DNA from: Bacteroidaceae bacterium
Lineage (GTDB): Bacteria; Bacteroidota; Bacteroidia; Bacteroidales; Barnesiellaceae_A
Direction: 5' to 3'
NCBI GenBank assembly: GCA_017481745.1
Contig: JAFUOV010000018.1
Location: 124,001-188,000, forward strand
DNA: 64,000 nucleotides
Shown: positions 10,501 to 23,444 of the stretch, in pieces
Layout: the number at the start of each line of letters is the position of its first letter
How positions within the stretch are numbered: the first letter of the stretch is position 1
The notes under the pieces: model-generated
What the model was told of the DNA's origin: nothing
What the model saw: only the letters and a program-made list of their open reading frames with translations
The model's database searches: none
Program-made: the position numbers and the translations under genes

Positions 10501-13500
10501 ATGAAGAAGTTTTTTATCATCGCAATGTTGACTTCTGTCGCTATGGCAATGGGGCAGAATTCAAACTTTTGTGACTATGCCGGTAGCAGGTCACAATTAT
10601 CACTCAAAGAGGTGACAGGTAATTCACAAGGGGCTTACGAGTTGATGCATTATGCTTCGGCACAGAAAGTCGCTAAGTTGATGTGTGTTGAGCAACGTGC
10701 TACGAATGTTCCTGCCGATAAGGCAGAGGTTATTCTCGAAGCGCACAAGGTGTTTGGCGAGTTTGCTCAAGTAGGCTTCCAAATGCTGTTGGATGCCGAC
10801 CATAATGTTTATGGTGAGCTTATCTACGATTGGGCTATGGGCTACTATGAGACATCTTATGATAGTTTTGAATATAAGATGCCCGAGGGAGCCGATGCTA
10901 ACGAGATGAGTACCAACGTTATTATTGATGGTGAAACTTCAATTCAAATCCCGGCTGGTGTATATGACTATATGATATTGTATCCTTTCCCGGGAGAAGG
11001 TCTGGTTTATGCATCGGGTGAGTTTGGAAAATTTGATGACTTCGACTTTAAAGGTGGTTGTTCATACCGCTTTTTAGTGGAGTATGGCGAGTATGATAAT
11101 GGCGATTATGTAGGTTACTTCCCGGTAGCATATCTTTATACCGATGTCGATGCTGCTCTTACCTCGCTCGTACTTCCGGCAAACGGAATGGATATGACCG
11201 ATAGCGAAGAAATTACAGTGGGTATTGCCAATCGTGGTAAAGAACCTATTTCGCAATTCTCTGTTTCGTATCAGGTGAATGATAACGAGGTTGTTACCGA
11301 AACCTTTACCGGTACAATAGCTGCCGGCGAAAAAGTCGACTATACATTTGCAACCAAAGCCGATATGTCGCAGGAGCAACAATATTATGTTACTGCATGG
11401 GTGTCGCTCGAGGGCGATATGATACCAAGTAACGACAAGTGCACAGGCAAGTGTAAGCACATAGGTGTGTCGCAACTTCCGTTCCATTACGACTTCTCGG
11501 AGATGGGCATCGAAGCATTTGAGTCTGATTGGACTGTTGAGGATGTAAATTGCGATGATAGCAAATGGTCGTATAGCGAGTGGGTAGAAGATGTAGATGG
11601 TAATAGTGGAGCAGTAGGATGTTCGGGCTGTTGGGGTGATACTCGTACAGGTAATGACAACCTGATATCGCTGCCTATCAACATGTCGAGCGGTGATCAC
11701 CACATATTGCTGAACTCGCGTTGTGTTAACGATGAAACTACCGAGTTGTTGGATGTATTGTATGGTACAACAACCAATGTATCGGAGATGACTACTATTG
11801 CCGAGTTGAAAGTCAAGTCGACCGAGTGGGTGTCGTATGTTGTCAACTTCAACGTGCCAGCCGATGGCGTTTACTATGTTGCCCTTCGAGTACACTCGGT
11901 AGAGGGTATGAATGTATATGTAGATGAGATAACAGTCGATGCCGGTTTCTTCGCGGTTTCGCCTTCGTTGGTAATTGATCGTGTTGTCCTTCCTTATTCC
12001 AATTGCGATTTGTCCGATCAGAGCTTGGTTGGTGCAACTATTACCAACAAGGGAACAGGTCCTACCGATACTTTCAAATTGATATATACTATTAATAATA
12101 ATGAACCGGTTGAGCAGGTATTTGAGGCTGTATTGGCACCTACCGAGACTGCTACCTACTACTTCGATACTCGTGCCGACTTCTCGGAGATAGGTACTTA
12201 CAATGTATTGCTTAAGGCTATTTCTAAAGAGGATGTCGATAGTGAGTTGCGTGCCGAGGTATCCAATTATGAACCTATTACTCAAATGCCTATTGAGGTA
12301 GACTTTATTTCGGGACACAATTACGATGAATTTTGGAATGAGATGAACCCCGGTAGCTGGGAGCGTGATGAAATGTTTGGTACTTTCGGTGCAAATGTAT
12401 CGGGTGCCGAAAACGGTCTTATTTCACACTGCTTGGATTTGACAAATTCGGTGCGTTTCAGTCTGCAATATGTCAATAGCGGATGGTCAAGCGCAGGTTT
12501 CTATGTGGCTTATGGCAAGGCGGGTGCCGATGTCAGCACATATACCAAGGTGTATGAAGACTATGATGTGGCATCAGCCAAAGAGGTTGAGTTTGTTGTG
12601 CCTATTACCGAGCGCGACCATTATAGCTTTATCATAGTGAATGACTCGGAAGAGGATTGCGGTATAAACCTTGGTAAGATGATTATCTCGGAGTTGTTGC
12701 CCAATGACTTGCGATTGGTTAATGTTATGGCGCCTATGAGCAGTTATACACCGCAGTCGCAATTTGAAGGAGAGGCTACATTTATGGTCGAGGTGAACAA
12801 TCGTGGTACTGAAGATATGACAGGTGTCAAGGCTACATTGTTGTGCAATGACCAAGTGATTGCCACAAGTGAGGCTGTAAGTAGTATCTCGGAAAATGCC
12901 ACTGTATATATTCCTATAACAACTGCTATTGCCAAAGCCGCGGTGGGCGATGTGATGAATTTTGCTGTTGAGCTGTCCGCCAATGAGGTTGATGGTTATA
13001 TGGACGACAATAGTTTTGCACTATCGCCTATTAATGTTACCGATACTGTGTACGCTACAGAGAATGTTACTATGATAGAGAGAGGTACAGGTATGTGGAG
13101 CGAAACAATAAAGCTGGGTAACGTCTATGAAGTGATGGTTGCTGATGTATTGTCTTCGATTACCATCGGTTGGATGTCGGTCGATGGCGATACAGAAATG
13201 GCTTCTAAACAGATTGCTCTTTCGATTTATGAAGTGTGTGAAGATATGACTTTGGGACGTCAATTGTTTACAGCCACATATGACCGTGGTATGAGCGATT
13301 TTGTTACCTATGAGTTGGATGCCATGAAGTTGGAGCCCGGCAAATATTTTGTTGAAGTACAACAACTTAGTACCTATAATATGGGTGTAGGTGTTGTTGA
13401 GGGAGAGCAAAGCTATTGCTATCAAAATCTAGATAATGAGTTGATTAAGGCTACAGGTCTGTCGCTGGTTGTAAGAGCCAACTTTGCTCATGATGCAGTG

Positions 13501-14676
13501 GTTTATGATAAGGATGTTGCAGTTATAGAATTGGTATCACCTGTTAAGCGTGCGACACTCTTTACATCGGACGAAATCATTGCTTTCAGAGTTAAGAATA
13601 TGGGTAGCAAAGAGGCAGAATTCGATTTGGATTGTAAGGTGAATAGTGTCGAATATACTCGTCATTTGAATTTATTACCTTATGAGGTTGCAGAGGTTGC
13701 CTTCGAGAAAGTCGATTTGTCGGCTGTCGGTGATTACGTAGTTACTGCAACGGTTGTACTCGAAGGTGATGAGAATAGCGAGAATAATACTATAACCGAA
13801 ACACTGACAACAGTTGAGGAGTCTAATCGCTATGTTATGAATTTTGAGGATTGCTATGACTTTGATGCCGGTCCCGACAAATTCAATCCTACTTGGCGTA
13901 CCGTCGACCGCATAGGTGATCCTACCGATTACTTCTGGATGTTTGAATATCCTTATCGTGGCGAGCCCGTTGGTTTCATCGTGTTTAATCCCAAGTCTAC
14001 TCGCCCTGTTGTTACAGAGGATAACCTGCCCGGATTTACACCGCGTTCAGGTGAGCGCTTTGCCGCTGCTTTCTGTTTGGGTTATGAAGCAAATAGCGAT
14101 GTTAGCGATGTATGGCTCATTTCACCCAAGTTGCCGTTGAATACCAACTCGTCGCTCGAGCTCTATGTAAAGACTCGTATGATTGAGTCGATGGACCAAT
14201 CGTTAGAGCCTTATCGCATACTCGTTTCGGATACCAACGACGACTTTGATAGCTTTGTGGTTGTCAGTGAGGGTACTGCGCCCGAAGGTGAATGGGGTTT
14301 GGTCAATGTCGACCTCAAGGATTATGATGGCAAGGAGATTTATGTTGCCATCCAGTATGTGGGTGTGCGATTTGAGAATGTTTGCCTCATGGTAGACGAT
14401 ATAGCGGTGAAAGGTGATGGACTGGGTGTTGCCAATGTAAATGCCGATGATGTTTATATGCGCTACAATGCCACAGAAGCCACTATCTCAATTAATACCA
14501 GTGATGCGATACAACGTGTCGAGTTGTTCGACTTGCAAGGTAGAGCAGTATATGCTGCCGATGCCAACATGACAACATTATATCGCTTCTCGGTAGCTGA
14601 TTGTCCGGCGGGTGTATATATCTGTAAGGTGTATACCGCAGCAGGCACTGCCGTTCAGAAGTTTGTTGTACGTTAA
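10501..14676 (+). CDS. Large secreted multidomain protein with type IX sorting domain
   Basis: 1391 residues, exported. Signal peptide 1-19 (MKKFFIIAMLTSVAMAMGQ). The body alternates jelly-roll 'choice-of-anchor J'/cleaved-adhesin-like segments (about 325-480, 597-735, 1112-1305, each with a Phe-Trp-rich core and a closing VDEI/VDDI strand) with CARDB-like Ig segments (about 220-310, 490-590, 740-835, 1005-1105, each with the pattern 'NxGxxPxxxF... YxFxTxADFSE'). The last 80 residues (VELFDLQGRAVY ... PAGVYICKVYT) form a type A sorting domain for the type IX secretion system, so it is expected on the cell surface or released. No catalytic motif is visible; an adhesin or scaffold is the best guess. 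Monocistronic, ending at a strong bidirectional terminator. Confidence 0.85.
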   Translation: MKKFFIIAMLTSVAMAMGQNSNFCDYAGSRSQLSLKEVTGNSQGAYELMHYASAQKVAKLMCVEQRATNVPADKAEVILEAHKVFGEFAQVGFQMLLDADHNVYGELIYDWAMGYYETSYDSFEYKMPEGADANEMSTNVIIDGETSIQIPAGVYDYMILYPFPGEGLVYASGEFGKFDDFDFKGGCSYRFLVEYGEYDNGDYVGYFPVAYLYTDVDAALTSLVLPANGMDMTDSEEITVGIANRGKEPISQFSVSYQVNDNEVVTETFTGTIAAGEKVDYTFATKADMSQEQQYYVTAWVSLEGDMIPSNDKCTGKCKHIGVSQLPFHYDFSEMGIEAFESDWTVEDVNCDDSKWSYSEWVEDVDGNSGAVGCSGCWGDTRTGNDNLISLPINMSSGDHHILLNSRCVNDETTELLDVLYGTTTNVSEMTTIAELKVKSTEWVSYVVNFNVPADGVYYVALRVHSVEGMNVYVDEITVDAGFFAVSPSLVIDRVVLPYSNCDLSDQSLVGATITNKGTGPTDTFKLIYTINNNEPVEQVFEAVLAPTETATYYFDTRADFSEIGTYNVLLKAISKEDVDSELRAEVSNYEPITQMPIEVDFISGHNYDEFWNEMNPGSWERDEMFGTFGANVSGAENGLISHCLDLTNSVRFSLQYVNSGWSSAGFYVAYGKAGADVSTYTKVYEDYDVASAKEVEFVVPITERDHYSFIIVNDSEEDCGINLGKMIISELLPNDLRLVNVMAPMSSYTPQSQFEGEATFMVEVNNRGTEDMTGVKATLLCNDQVIATSEAVSSISENATVYIPITTAIAKAAVGDVMNFAVELSANEVDGYMDDNSFALSPINVTDTVYATENVTMIERGTGMWSETIKLGNVYEVMVADVLSSITIGWMSVDGDTEMASKQIALSIYEVCEDMTLGRQLFTATYDRGMSDFVTYELDAMKLEPGKYFVEVQQLSTYNMGVGVVEGEQSYCYQNLDNELIKATGLSLVVRANFAHDAVVYDKDVAVIELVSPVKRATLFTSDEIIAFRVKNMGSKEAEFDLDCKVNSVEYTRHLNLLPYEVAEVAFEKVDLSAVGDYVVTATVVLEGDENSENNTITETLTTVEESNRYVMNFEDCYDFDAGPDKFNPTWRTVDRIGDPTDYFWMFEYPYRGEPVGFIVFNPKSTRPVVTEDNLPGFTPRSGERFAAAFCLGYEANSDVSDVWLISPKLPLNTNSSLELYVKTRMIESMDQSLEPYRILVSDTNDDFDSFVVVSEGTAPEGEWGLVNVDLKDYDGKEIYVAIQYVGVRFENVCLMVDDIAVKGDGLGVANVNADDVYMRYNATEATISINTSDAIQRVELFDLQGRAVYAADANMTTLYRFSVADCPAGVYICKVYTAAGTAVQKFVVR

Positions 14677-18583: not shown

Positions 18584-19465
18584 TTATTTCCTTTTGAGTG
18601 TATATATATAATATGTGTAATTGTCTTGTGTGCGCGAGTTTCTTTTCAGTGCGCGCCACATTGACAGCCATATATTGGGTTTTTGTTGCGACGATAGCTC
18701 GCTCATCACGTTGGTAATGAAGCTGCGATATGTCGAGTGGCTACGGTTGGTTATCACGAGGTTGTATGGCTCAATCAACTTCTCGAAGGCTTGCGGCGTG
18801 AGGTGCCAACGCTTGCGCGGAGCATCCCATGCACTCCAGTTGCTGCCATAATATTGGGCATCGTCGCTTACTGCACTGTGGAAGGCTATGACCAACGTTC
18901 CGTCCGAAACGATAAGTTGCGATAGCTTCTCCATGGTCCTGTTTATGTTGAACGATTTGCCAAGCGTGTCCCACGCTACAACAACATTGTATGAGCGAGG
19001 GTTGATGTCAAACAATCGGCTGCCATCCTCAACTTGCTGTTGAAAGCGCTTGTTGCCATATTCTCGTGCGGTTGCATCGTACTCAACGCCATGAGCTATC
19101 CAACCATTGCCGCGCATGGCTTGCGAAAAGTGCCCCTGTTCGCTACCCATTTCAAGGAGTACGCCGCTCATGCGTTGCGACTCTTCTTTTACGATTTTAA
19201 CCTGTTTCTTATACCACCATTCATGCAGGCGATGCAGCCATTTTCGCTCCGGGGTTTTTGCCGGTTTGTAACATTCGCTATCGCTGTCGGGATAGAACGC
19301 ACCCATGTCGGCAAGGATTGGAGCATATTGGGTGATATGCAACCCGCAATCGCTGCATTGCAGTATCTCGAAGGTCTTGCCCGAGATGCTGTCGGTGTAT
19401 GATAGCTTGTGTATCAGATGACTACCCTTGCATATGGGGCAGTTGTCGATGCGGGTTGTTGTCAT
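18584..19465 (-). CDS. Class I SAM-dependent methyltransferase with N-terminal zinc-ribbon-like segment
   Basis: 293 residues, first gene of the ftsX operon. The N terminus has two CxxC pairs, CPICKG (about 9-14) and CSDCGL (about 37-42), a putative zinc ribbon. This is followed by a Rossmann methyltransferase core with a degenerate motif I (LLEMGSEQGHFSQAM instead of the usual D-x-G-x-G-x-G) and the acidic end of strand 2 (GVEYD). VVVAWDTLGKS takes the motif-IV position. This arrangement is common in Methyltransf_23-type proteins of Bacteroidota that modify saccharides or small molecules, but the substrate is unknown. The start ATG at 19465 lies directly before the zinc-ribbon segment. Confidence 0.75.
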   Translation of the reverse strand: MTTTRIDNCPICKGSHLIHKLSYTDSISGKTFEILQCSDCGLHITQYAPILADMGAFYPDSDSECYKPAKTPERKWLHRLHEWWYKKQVKIVKEESQRMSGVLLEMGSEQGHFSQAMRGNGWIAHGVEYDATAREYGNKRFQQQVEDGSRLFDINPRSYNVVVAWDTLGKSFNINRTMEKLSQLIVSDGTLVIAFHSAVSDDAQYYGSNWSAWDAPRKRWHLTPQAFEKLIEPYNLVITNRSHSTYRSFITNVMSELSSQQKPNIWLSMWRALKRNSRTQDNYTYYIYTLKRK

Positions 19466-19781: not shown

Positions 19782-20945
19782 CTATTCTCGATTTTCAAAA
19801 AGGTAGGTATACAGACGACGGTCGGCATCTGACAGCTCTTTGTGGCGACGAGCCATTACGCGCTCGGCAATATCGAAGAAACGATTTAAGCCAACCTCGG
19901 TGAAGCCTTGAGCACCGCCTTCGCTGAATGAAGGAACGTATGTGCGAGGAAATCCCGCTCCGTATATATTGCATCCAACGCCTACGACGGTGGCTGTGTT
20001 GAACATGGTGTTGATGCCTGCCTTGCTGTGGTCGCCCATGATGGGTCCGCAGAATTGTAAGCCCGACTTGCGGAACGAGCGGGTGGGGTAGTTCCATACA
20101 CGCACCTCGGCATAGGTGTTCTTGAGGTTCGATGCTACGGTGTCGGCGCCGAGGTTGCACCATTCGCCTATTACTGCATTGCCCAAGAAACCATCGTGGG
20201 CTTTGTTGGAGTAGCCTATAAATACTACATTGTTGAGCTCGCCTCCCACTTTGCAGTATGGACCGAGGGTTGTAGGTCCGTATACCTTTGTGCCCATATT
20301 CAATACCGAGTGCTCGCACATTGCTAATGGACCACGTACGGCGCAAGTCTCCATGATTTCGGCATCCTTACCTATATATATAGGTCCGTTCTTGGTGTTG
20401 AGTGTGGCACATTCGACGGTTGCTCCTTCTTCTATAAAGAGCAGGCTGCTGTCGCCAATGAGGGTACATGTCCGGCTCAAAGGTGCCGAGGTGCGGTTGC
20501 GGGTAATGCGCTCGAAATCGGCACACAATTCCTTGCCGTTTTTGCCAAATATGTCGTAGGGGTAGCGTATTGCATCGGGTGTCTCGCAAGGGGTAGCTGT
20601 TTTTGAGGGGATGGTCTCGCCTGCAACAAACTCGCTACCGCGGTATGCCCATATCTCATTCTCGTCGGCAATGGCTTCGCCGGTTTCGAGATTGGCTATT
20701 TGATTGGCAAGCCCTTGTGTGGCAAGCAGGTGTCCGGCTATGAAAATATTATCCTCGGCGAGTCGGCAAGGATATTTTTCCGACAGATATGACTCGGTCT
20801 GGTATGAATAGTTACCCGGAAGTAATGCCTCCCATTTCTCGCGTAGTGTGTTTATGCCCACGCGCAAGTCGGCTATGGGGCGGGTAAATGTCAACGGCAG
20901 TAAGTTGCCATGCTCTGTGGTGGTGTCAAAAAGAATTATGTTCAT
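19782..20945 (-). CDS. GlmU-like sugar nucleotidyltransferase/acyltransferase (Bacteroidota type)
   Basis: 387 residues of the Bacteroidota 'alternative GlmU' family (TIGR03991-like), thought to supply UDP-N-acetylglucosamine for peptidoglycan and lipopolysaccharide. The N-terminal part has the nucleotidyltransferase-like start ILFDTTTEHGNLLPLTFTRPIADLRVG. From about residue 180 to 340 there is a left-handed beta-helix of hexapeptide repeats (for example GPIYIGKDAEIM, GPTTLGPYCKVGGELN, AVIGEWCNLGADT) with the acyltransferase-like GDHSKAGINTMFNTATVVG. It lies alone between a terminator and a divergent gene. The exact reaction is inferred from the family. Confidence 0.88.
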   Translation of the reverse strand: MNIILFDTTTEHGNLLPLTFTRPIADLRVGINTLREKWEALLPGNYSYQTESYLSEKYPCRLAEDNIFIAGHLLATQGLANQIANLETGEAIADENEIWAYRGSEFVAGETIPSKTATPCETPDAIRYPYDIFGKNGKELCADFERITRNRTSAPLSRTCTLIGDSSLLFIEEGATVECATLNTKNGPIYIGKDAEIMETCAVRGPLAMCEHSVLNMGTKVYGPTTLGPYCKVGGELNNVVFIGYSNKAHDGFLGNAVIGEWCNLGADTVASNLKNTYAEVRVWNYPTRSFRKSGLQFCGPIMGDHSKAGINTMFNTATVVGVGCNIYGAGFPRTYVPSFSEGGAQGFTEVGLNRFFDIAERVMARRHKELSDADRRLYTYLFENRE

Positions 20946-21052
20946 AATCGTATGTTGTTTGACGAGGATATGTCAAAATAGCTTATAGTCGCTCGTCGAG
21001 GTTAAACCATTTCTTGTGCGGGCTTGTTTTCTCTGTGTCGCAAACCGGCAGT

Positions 21053-21080
21053 CAAAGATAATAATTTTTTTGCTCCTCAA
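21053..21080 (-). promoter_or_regulatory. Promoter of the GlmU-like gene
   Basis: Minus-strand -7 element TATCTTTG (21053-21060); TTG at 21078-21080 gives 17 nt spacing, and another TTG at 21083-21085 gives 22 nt. It overlaps the leader of the divergent asparagine-synthetase-like gene, so the two could interfere. Confidence 0.6.
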
Positions 21081-21089
21081 TGCAATTTT

Positions 21090-22730
21090 ATGAGTGGAAT
21101 AGCAGGAATAGTAGGCGATGTAGATAATATCGAGTATCGTGTGGCGGCGATGTTGCGCAGTCAGGAACATCGGGGTTGTAATAATAATGGTTTTTGGGTA
21201 TCTTCTTTTGTCGACTCGCAGCTCGGCTTGGCGCATTGTGGCAGAGTTGTTAGTGAGATGGAGGAAGATGTGCATCAGCCCTACGTCGATGATGATACAT
21301 TGTTGGTTGTAGCGATAGAAGGCGAGGTGTATAACTATAAGGAGTTGCGCCGAGAATTGTCGGCACACTACACCTTTGCAACCGATAGCTCGGTAGAGGT
21401 TGTTTCCAAAGCCTATCACCGCTGGGGGCGGGAGTTCTTGCATCGGCTGGTGGGCGCTTTTGTTATAGTGATATATGATAGAGATAATGAGGTGCTGTTT
21501 CTGGCACGAGATAGATTTGGGGTCAAACCACTTTATTATGCAACACAACGAGGTTGCTTGTTTTTTTCGTCGGAGATACGCCCGTTGTTTGCAGCCGGAG
21601 TACATCGCAGCGTTTCGCCCGAGCGCTGGGCTGGATATATGCTCTACTCGTCGTATGGTGCAGCGTATAGCACCTTTTGGGATGGCGTACATCAGTTGCC
21701 TGCCGGGTTTTGGCTGGAGTATAACGGATACTCGTTGCACGAGCGTGCGTGGTATAGCTTGCAAGATGATGTAGCCGAGTTGTTGGCAGACTATGATGCC
21801 GGGCAGATGGCAGAACTTTTCGTCGACCGGATGGAGTGTTGCGCTGAGCAAAGCATGTCGGATGTGTCGTCTTGCGGGCTGCGTGTGGGAGGTCGGGTAG
21901 AAACACAGGCTTTACATGTTATAGCCTCGCGCGGGCAGCAGGTGTGGAAGGTGCACACCTTTACCGGCGATATAGATAGTGTGGACAATACTCCTTTGGC
22001 AACTCCTATCTGGGTAACAGCAGCGCATGCGGTAGAGGAGTTGGAACGGATGAATGTCTGGGTGGAAGAACCATTTGATGGCACCGAGTCGCTGGTACGC
22101 ACAGCGATGTTTCGTCGTATAAATCGCGATGGAGTGCGGGTAGTGTGCAGTGGCATAGGGCTCGATGTGTTGTGGCAGTACAATTGGGATATGAACGAGA
22201 TGCACTATAATTATCTGCAACAAAACTCGCTCTTCTCGCCCTCCTTTGTCGCTCTTGCCGAGCGACCCGACTATCTGCATCGCTTTGCCGACGAAGCCGA
22301 TAACCTGCGCTATCTCGACTTATATTACGAGCGGATACCACATATCCTGCGTTTCTTTGACCGCTCGGCAGCCGAGGCGGGAGTAACCCTACGCGCACCC
22401 TTTCTCGATGGTCGATTGGTCGCACTCTCTTTTGCGCTGCCTATGGCGAGCCACAAGCCTCGAAAGATGCTGTTTGATAATTGTATGGAGCGCCGCTACA
22501 ACTGCTCAATACGGCGCACTGCTACAAGCTCGATGTTGCCGTTGTGGATGAGTGGTGGCTTGAAAGAGTGGATGGGCGATGCCTTGAGTGACTTGCGCAA
22601 CAGCTCGGCGCGCGAGTGGTTTGATGTGTTGGAGTTAGACCGTATGTGGTCGCAATTTTGCGACGGTGCACCACTCGATATCGCCTTGCTGTGGAAGTGT
22701 GTTGCTTTGCATCGACAACTCTGTGTTTAG
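21090..22730 (+). CDS. Degenerate asparagine synthetase-like protein (probable pseudoenzyme)
   Basis: 546 residues with the full two-domain outline of AsnB: an N-terminal class II glutamine amidotransferase fold and a C-terminal PP-loop synthetase domain. Diagnostic scaffolds remain: MSGIAGIVGD, EGEVYNYKELR (78-87), LFLARDRFGVKPLYY (136-150), LRAPFLDGRLVALSFALP. The catalytic parts are altered: the nucleophile Cys after Met1 is Ser2; RGPD is RGCN (28-31); the PP-loop SGGxDS is SCGLRVGG (261-268); the GEGADE-like motif is SGIGLDV (354-360). It is unlikely to use glutamine or ATP in the normal way. The reading frame is intact, so it is conserved as a protein rather than decayed. The ATG at 21090 is chosen because MSGI aligns with the family's MCGI; an in-frame start at 21024 would add 22 residues without homology. 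Monocistronic by position. Confidence 0.8.
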   Translation: MSGIAGIVGDVDNIEYRVAAMLRSQEHRGCNNNGFWVSSFVDSQLGLAHCGRVVSEMEEDVHQPYVDDDTLLVVAIEGEVYNYKELRRELSAHYTFATDSSVEVVSKAYHRWGREFLHRLVGAFVIVIYDRDNEVLFLARDRFGVKPLYYATQRGCLFFSSEIRPLFAAGVHRSVSPERWAGYMLYSSYGAAYSTFWDGVHQLPAGFWLEYNGYSLHERAWYSLQDDVAELLADYDAGQMAELFVDRMECCAEQSMSDVSSCGLRVGGRVETQALHVIASRGQQVWKVHTFTGDIDSVDNTPLATPIWVTAAHAVEELERMNVWVEEPFDGTESLVRTAMFRRINRDGVRVVCSGIGLDVLWQYNWDMNEMHYNYLQQNSLFSPSFVALAERPDYLHRFADEADNLRYLDLYYERIPHILRFFDRSAAEAGVTLRAPFLDGRLVALSFALPMASHKPRKMLFDNCMERRYNCSIRRTATSSMLPLWMSGGLKEWMGDALSDLRNSSAREWFDVLELDRMWSQFCDGAPLDIALLWKCVALHRQLCV

Positions 22731-23039: not shown

Positions 23040-23444
23040 ATGCCTACAATTCAGCAATTAGTAAGAAAAGGAAGGGTTGTTTTGGAAGACAAGAGTAAAT
23101 CGCCTGCACTCGATTCATGTCCTCAACGTCGTGGCGTGTGCGTACGTGTTTACACTACTACTCCCAAAAAACCTAACTCGGCTATGCGTAAAGTAGCTCG
23201 TGTGCGCTTGACAAACGGTAAAGAGGTTAACTCTTATATCCCCGGTGAGGGTCATAACTTGCAAGAGCACTCGATAGTACTTGTTCGTGGCGGTCGTGTG
23301 AAAGACCTCCCCGGTGTACGTTATCACATCGTTCGTGGTACTCTCGATACAGCCGGTGTAAACGGTCGTTTGCAACGTCGCTCGAAATACGGAGCCAAGA
23401 GACCTAAAGCAGGTGCTGCCGCTGCGGCTAAAGGTAAAAAATAA
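23040..23444 (+). CDS. rpsL: 30S ribosomal protein S12
   Basis: 134 residues. S12 sits at the decoding centre. Seen: the streptomycin-site loop [15 protein letters not shown] with the conserved lysines, and [11 protein letters not shown] preceded by Asp, the residue that is methylthiolated in many bacteria. A short Ala/Lys tail ends the protein. First gene of the array; about four of its five glutamine codons are CAA. Confidence 0.99.

Follow-up and report, generated by a model that had tools for sequence, protein, structure and literature searches.

An asparagine-synthetase-like protein with key residues of both catalytic sites lost is probably maintained as a pseudoenzyme in a Bacteroidales genus

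Introduction

Homology to AsnB usually leads to a protein being annotated as an enzyme. What does such a protein do when a whole lineage has lost both of its reaction centres and kept the gene? The question is raised by a locus in a 64,000-nucleotide stretch of a Bacteroidales contig (JAFUOV010000018.1, positions 124,001 to 188,000; hereafter the window), where a first-pass annotation made from the sequence alone described an asparagine-synthetase-like protein that had lost every catalytic site, had kept its fold and was perhaps retained for binding, regulation or a new chemistry.

Reading frame, domains and predicted fold

Translation of the plus strand from 21090 to 22730 gives a frame without interruption, encoding the 546 residues plus stop that the first-pass annotation had reported, and this gene, referred to here as pseudo-AsnB, is further supported by Pfam matches, orthologues and an AlphaFold2 model. 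An alternative, longer in-frame start lies at 21024; the ATG at 21090 is preferred because the eight other orthologues of the genus all begin in the same way, with M-[S/G]-G-[I/L]. Pfam recognises GATase_7 (E=1e-33) and Asn_synthase (E=7.6e-17) in the 546-residue protein, which is homology well beyond chance. The N-terminal Ntn/GATase-II-like domain (approximately residues 1-230; 21090..21779, plus strand), defined by Pfam, alignment and the model, has a mean pairwise identity of 66% within the genus and has lost its nucleophile and glutamine-binding residues. It is followed by a C-terminal ATP-pyrophosphatase/synthetase-like domain (21780..22727, plus strand), assigned from the Asn_synthase match and the predicted fold.

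That the fold has been kept agrees with structure prediction, as a model built from 31 aligned sequences (pLDDT 87.3, pTM 0.90), which supersedes a weak one built from 10 sequences (pLDDT 65), predicts an intact two-domain AsnB fold. Among solved structures, compared by Foldseek and VIA, this model is closest to the hydroxyamidotransferase TsnB9 (PDB 7ylz; VIA Z 34.1 over 513 residues, rmsd 2.9). E. coli AsnB (PDB 1ct9) matches with VIA Z 31.4 over 451 residues at rmsd 3.4, and beta-lactam synthetase and carbapenam synthetase (PDB 1jgt and 1q15) match with Z about 25. TsnB9, which its depositors name an amide-forming enzyme, is also the best sequence match in the PDB (E=7.9e-24), but at only 21-24% identity to the window protein.

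Comparison with family models places the protein outside the functional AsnB family. With AsnB (TIGR01536, PDB 1ct9) it shares the two-domain fold and a sequence homology detectable over both domains, but it lacks Cys1, the glutamine-binding residues, the PP-loop and the catalytic Lys, and its score of 191.1 bits falls under the 267.1-bit cut-off of the NCBIfam AsnB equivalog. The eps_aminotran_1 model (TIGR03108; XrtA/PEP-CTERM, WbpS-like) is matched with 155.5 bits over residues 1-361 only, where the cut-off is 816.9.

The two catalytic sites

In the glutaminase domain, the N-terminal catalytic Cys is missing from all nine aligned orthologues of the genus, being replaced by Ser in eight, including Ser2 of the window protein (21093..21095, plus strand), and by Gly in one. 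The motif RGPD reads RGCN at residues 28-31 (21171..21182, plus strand), and both substitutions, which had been noticed in the first-pass annotation, are borne out by translation and alignment. The alignment adds further losses to these, as the three glutamine-binding residues R49, N74 and D98 are replaced and, at the ATP/PPi site, the segment carrying the catalytic Lys449 is deleted. R49 has become G51 (Gly, Ser or Ala across the genus), the N74 position is occupied by residue 77 (21318..21320, plus strand; Glu here, Asp in most orthologues, and Val also occurring), and the D98 position by Ser101 (21390..21392, plus strand; Ser or Ala). We considered whether Ser2 might act as a replacement Ntn nucleophile, which is unlikely given Gly2 in one orthologue and the disappearance of the glutamine-binding residues.

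The ATP/PPi site has changed too. The remodelled PP-loop segment runs from C262 to Q273 (CGLRVGGRVETQ; 21873..21908, plus strand), and in an ungapped alignment residues V266-G-G-R-V-E-T-Q273 sit opposite LSGGLDSS, so that the first Ser has become Gly, the second Gly Arg, the Asp Glu, the next Ser Thr and the last Ser Gln. The first-pass annotation had read the loop as SCGLRVGG (261-268), which is misplaced; the aligned segment is VGGRVETQ (266-273). Its reading of the second motif, GIGLDV (355-360) for GEGxDE, stands, and the full segment SGIGLDV (354-360; 22149..22169, plus strand) aligns with [DS]GxGxDE, with Asp359 kept and the Glu lost. The claim that every catalytic site had been lost goes a little too far, given that Asp359 and Arg435 are still present; the nucleophile, the glutamine-binding residues and most ATP/PPi residues are indeed gone.

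At the SGGxDS position of the PP-loop, seven of the nine genus proteins read xGRxE[S/T], one reads xARxES and one xDRxES; R265, R269 and E271 are fixed in all nine, and neither Asp359 nor Arg435 varies. Position 272 carries Ser or Thr, and Glu occupies the position of the PP-loop Asp, in all 18 proteins of the genus and of a second family, f109 (f109, f60 and f88 being our labels for three other Bacteroidales families). Some nucleotide binding may persist through Asp359, Arg435 and Ser/Thr272. Of the 22 derived residues that are fixed in the genus, eight fall in the two former ATP loops, which make up 32 of 525 positions, a comparison that favours positions conserved in active enzymes. Under a stricter control, which admits only positions that do not vary among the active proteins, the signal is weaker, with 4/9 changed loop positions fixed to one new residue against 2/33 elsewhere (Fisher p=0.013). 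This pattern points, short of proof, to rebuilding of the former ATP site and not simply to its release from constraint. The rebuilt loops differ between the two families, the genus having R265, R269, E271, S354 and D359 and f109 having S265, D/N267, E271 and G354, without Asp359.

Relatives and the order of losses

Full-length, unbroken orthologues are present as a single copy in all nine examined genomes of the family, which belong to one genus, and are 52-77% identical to the window protein; f109 likewise carries a full-length, unbroken orthologue in 9/9 genomes. Frameshifts and stop codons, which would mark a decaying gene, were looked for in these relatives and found in none of the 18 orthologues. 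In a search of 393 Bacteroidales genomes, full-length relatives (E<=1e-45) were otherwise confined to f109, f60 (in two of five genomes) and f88, and more distant full-length relatives exist elsewhere in the class. A search of genome contigs with the single window protein returned no match, and with an alignment as query it returned eight members of the genus and one distant alphaproteobacterial AsnB. The named records of the genus are metagenome bins, mostly called 'Bacteroidaceae bacterium' and taken from rectum or colon of sheep, goat, water deer and water buffalo, and one is labelled 'uncultured Barnesiella sp.'. Outside the cellular genomes, an IMG/VR contig (L110:2501-4189) carries a catalytically complete AsnB-like gene of 562 aa, flanked by phage-like genes whose products look like terminase/portal and head-morphogenesis proteins.

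A maximum-likelihood tree unites the genus and f109 in one clade (support 100/99), and the catalytic columns of the alignment change in steps along it. The class-level relatives keep every catalytic column. The f60 and f88 relatives keep the Cys, SGGxDS and DGxGLDE, whereas N74 is replaced by Asp, D98 by residues other than Asp and E76 by Asn or Lys. In all f109 proteins the PP-loop Ser has become Asp or Asn and its Asp Glu, and the acids of GxGxDE have been lost along with the catalytic Lys, with the position of the catalytic Cys held by Cys in 4/9 and by Ser in 5/9. All nine genus proteins lack the Cys, R49, N74 and D98, and carry the rewritten PP-loop with R269 and E271 fixed.

Because of this tree and these columns, the simplest order of events would be loss of the glutamine site, then of the ATP site and finally of the Cys. 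The glutamine site would have been crippled in the common ancestor of the four Bacteroidales families (N74 to Asp, D98 lost) and the ATP/PPi site lost next in the ancestor of the genus and f109 (SGGxDS to xGxxE[S/T], catalytic Lys gone), with Cys1 disappearing last, at least twice. The TIGR01536 scores drop in the same order, from 375-377 through 301-337 and 220-223 to 191 bits (cut-off 267). Living relatives preserve the stages, glutamine site altered, ATP site lost and Cys lost, and so offer a good natural series in which to study the change from bifunctional amidotransferase to pseudoenzyme. A separate matter is that three f60 and f88 proteins (L048, L049 and L050) pass the NCBIfam cut-off for glutamine-hydrolysing AsnB although N74 and D98 are replaced, and they are probably synthetases with a defective glutaminase, to which the model gives the wrong label.

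Selection

The dN/dS ratios among relatives, proposed in the first-pass annotation as a check, are far below 1. Against its nearest relative in the genus, pseudo-AsnB has an NG86 dN/dS of 0.128 (dS 1.29), the closest f109 pair gives 0.093 (dS 0.33), and all unsaturated pairs fall at about 0.05-0.31, values that are imprecise as most dS exceed 1. For the same pair of genomes the neighbouring genes give 0.053 (glmU), 0.051 (ftsX), 0.024 (uppP) and 0.028 (fusA). The gene is therefore under purifying selection, weaker than that on its neighbours; the looser constraint is read from a dN/dS some 2.5 times that of glmU. Pseudo-AsnB is 77% identical in protein sequence to its nearest relative, compared with 90% and 91% for GlmU and FtsX.

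Gene neighbourhood and ancestry

The divergent neighbour of pseudo-AsnB is alt_bact_glmU, encoding UDP-GlcNAc diphosphorylase/GlcN-1-P acetyltransferase (19782..20945, minus strand; NCBIfam TIGR03991, 398 bits), so that the GlmU-like gene of the first-pass annotation is confirmed by family match and synteny. Its probable promoter, of Bacteroidales type (TTG-N17-TATCTTTG; 21053..21080, minus strand), lies within the 144-bp intergenic gap, the TATCTTTG box being at 21060-21053 on the minus strand with the TTG 17 bases upstream. The earlier observation that this promoter overlaps the pseudo-AsnB leader holds in the window as a consensus match, which was not found in all of the relatives. On the right-hand side the fixed neighbour, from the ORF list and synteny, is rpsL (23040..23444, plus strand), first gene of the str operon. 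The order divergent glmU, pseudo-AsnB, str operon is shared by those loci of the genus with enough sequence for the comparison and by three of the four f109 loci sampled, glmU not being adjacent in the f109 genome G215.

A second sugar gene, rmlC (dTDP-4-dehydrorhamnose 3,5-epimerase), lies downstream of the f109 orthologue, about 1.25 kb away in G685; in the genus it is present elsewhere in the genome and not adjacent to pseudo-AsnB. Among the f60/f88 relatives with an intact ATP site, none of which sits beside glmU, two of three have a family-2 glycosyltransferase upstream (G264 and G095) and the third, in the f60 genome G067, is directly followed by rmlC. The active relatives at class level sit among neuA, neuB and neuC, genes of sialic-acid type.

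Because these relatives with an intact ATP site adjoin glycosyltransferase, rmlC or neu genes, the ancestor was most likely a surface-glycan amidotransferase rather than the asparagine synthetase of the cell. In Porphyromonas gingivalis, WbpS is an AsnB-like amidotransferase that converts a surface-glycan sugar to its uronamide form, and WbpS and WbqG have been assigned to the eps_aminotran_1 family TIGR03108 (PMC7468200). This AsnB-type ancestor, using glutamine in surface-glycan synthesis, would probably have had a WbpS-like role. The window protein resembles WbpS and WbqG, which convert uronic acid to uronamide, in that relatives on its branch lie in surface-glycan neighbourhoods and in its weak match to TIGR03108; it is unlike them in its length (546 aa, against a model of 628 positions), in its lost catalytic residues and in that no wbp genes were recognised nearby.

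Asparagine supply

Neither AsnA, true AsnB nor GatB was detected in the nine genomes of the genus (G000 and G001-G008), two of which are rated 99% complete, and AsnA is present in all f109, f60 and f88 genomes tested. The genus is therefore predicted to be an asparagine auxotroph, and an AsnB-like match is poor ground for assuming asparagine prototrophy. On present evidence pseudo-AsnB is not an alternative source of asparagine, and a role as the cell's own asparagine synthetase is rejected, key residues having been lost at both catalytic sites. The first-pass annotation had suggested looking for a true AsnB as a partner; none was found in any of the nine genomes of the genus, that of the window included, where the only other Asn_synthase match resembles MnmA, a tRNA thiolase. 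Pseudo-AsnB therefore cannot regulate a paralogous AsnB.

A probable maintained pseudoenzyme and competing readings

Across species the catalytic residues are lost and the frame and selection are kept, as expected of a maintained pseudoenzyme, and we consider it probable, with moderate confidence, that pseudo-AsnB is such a protein, turned to binding or regulation near envelope-sugar synthesis. The retention for binding, regulation or new chemistry proposed in the first-pass annotation is supported in general by the 18 intact frames, the low dN/dS and the predicted fold. The intact two-domain protein would work without glutamine hydrolysis or adenylation, most probably binding a ligand or partner via the remodelled former ATP/acceptor pocket and serving as scaffold or regulator near nucleotide-sugar or envelope-glycan synthesis. 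Gene neighbourhood suggests the role close to envelope sugars, through the divergent position of glmU and, in f109, through rmlC close by. Coincidence may also account for these neighbours, with rmlC non-adjacent in the genus, glmU not adjacent in G215 and the f60/f88 relatives not beside glmU. Lost residues, unbroken frames, purifying selection, shared ancestry, synteny and the predicted fold are shown by the data; the lack of catalytic activity, the ancestral substrate, the binding or scaffold role and the link to glmU or rmlC are things that we infer. Should the pocket have been rebuilt, this would be an AsnB-fold sensor, or an enzyme of new chemistry, in envelope-sugar metabolism, with its intermediate stages in living species. 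In a literature search mostly outside subscription journals, no earlier double pseudoenzyme of the AsnB family or other relevant precedent was found. Human ASNSD1 was considered as one and set aside, as a review calls it only a predicted GAT class II enzyme.

A possibility that we hold only tentatively is that selection rebuilt the former ATP/PPi site, in a different way in each of the sister families, so that it now forms a new pocket for ligand binding or for catalysis. The narrower proposal that it became another active site, formed by R265, R269, E271, Ser/Thr272, S354, D359, R435 and W362-Q363, and made the protein a different kind of enzyme, seems somewhat more doubtful. In its favour, residues that are fixed in the genus and that active relatives do not have cluster in the two loops, an acidic Glu at the PP-loop Asp position and Ser/Thr272 are found in 18/18 proteins, every genus protein has Asp359, and the model predicts an intact fold. 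Against it, the differing loops of the genus and f109 would demand two chemistries or else indicate a binding role, the segment of the catalytic Lys has disappeared, and neither a new catalytic triad nor a metal motif was recognised.

Another alternative is a synthetase of low but genuine activity, a distant analogue of beta-lactam synthetase, which would take ammonia or an amine directly and still work with Asp-to-Glu in the PP-loop. Beta-lactam synthetase and carbapenam synthetase have the AsnB fold, lack glutaminase function and keep a working ATP/PPi synthetase site, in which they resemble the f60/f88 intermediates; in the window protein most residues of that site are lost. A glutaminase-independent synthetase stage probably existed, because f60 and f88 keep the ATP site with the glutamine site altered, and Glu at the PP-loop Asp in all 18 proteins is consistent with its survival, but loss in the genus of the first Ser and second Gly of the PP-loop, of the Glu of GxGxDE and of the catalytic Lys makes this quite improbable. 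Still less credible is a decaying remnant, in which function was lost in an ancestor and the gene survives by chance; its faster evolution than that of GlmU and FtsX would fit, but 18 of 18 full-length frames, genus identities of 52-77%, the range of dN/dS and new residues fixed at former catalytic positions argue strongly against it.

Other genes of the window

Beside ftsX, a methyltransferase-domain protein (18584-19465, minus strand) evolves unusually fast, with 32-68% identity within the genus compared with 76-91% for FtsX. Further upstream, a protein of 1391 aa (10501-14676, plus strand) has a signal-peptide-like start and a C-terminal end that, by eye, looks like a type IX secretion sorting domain.
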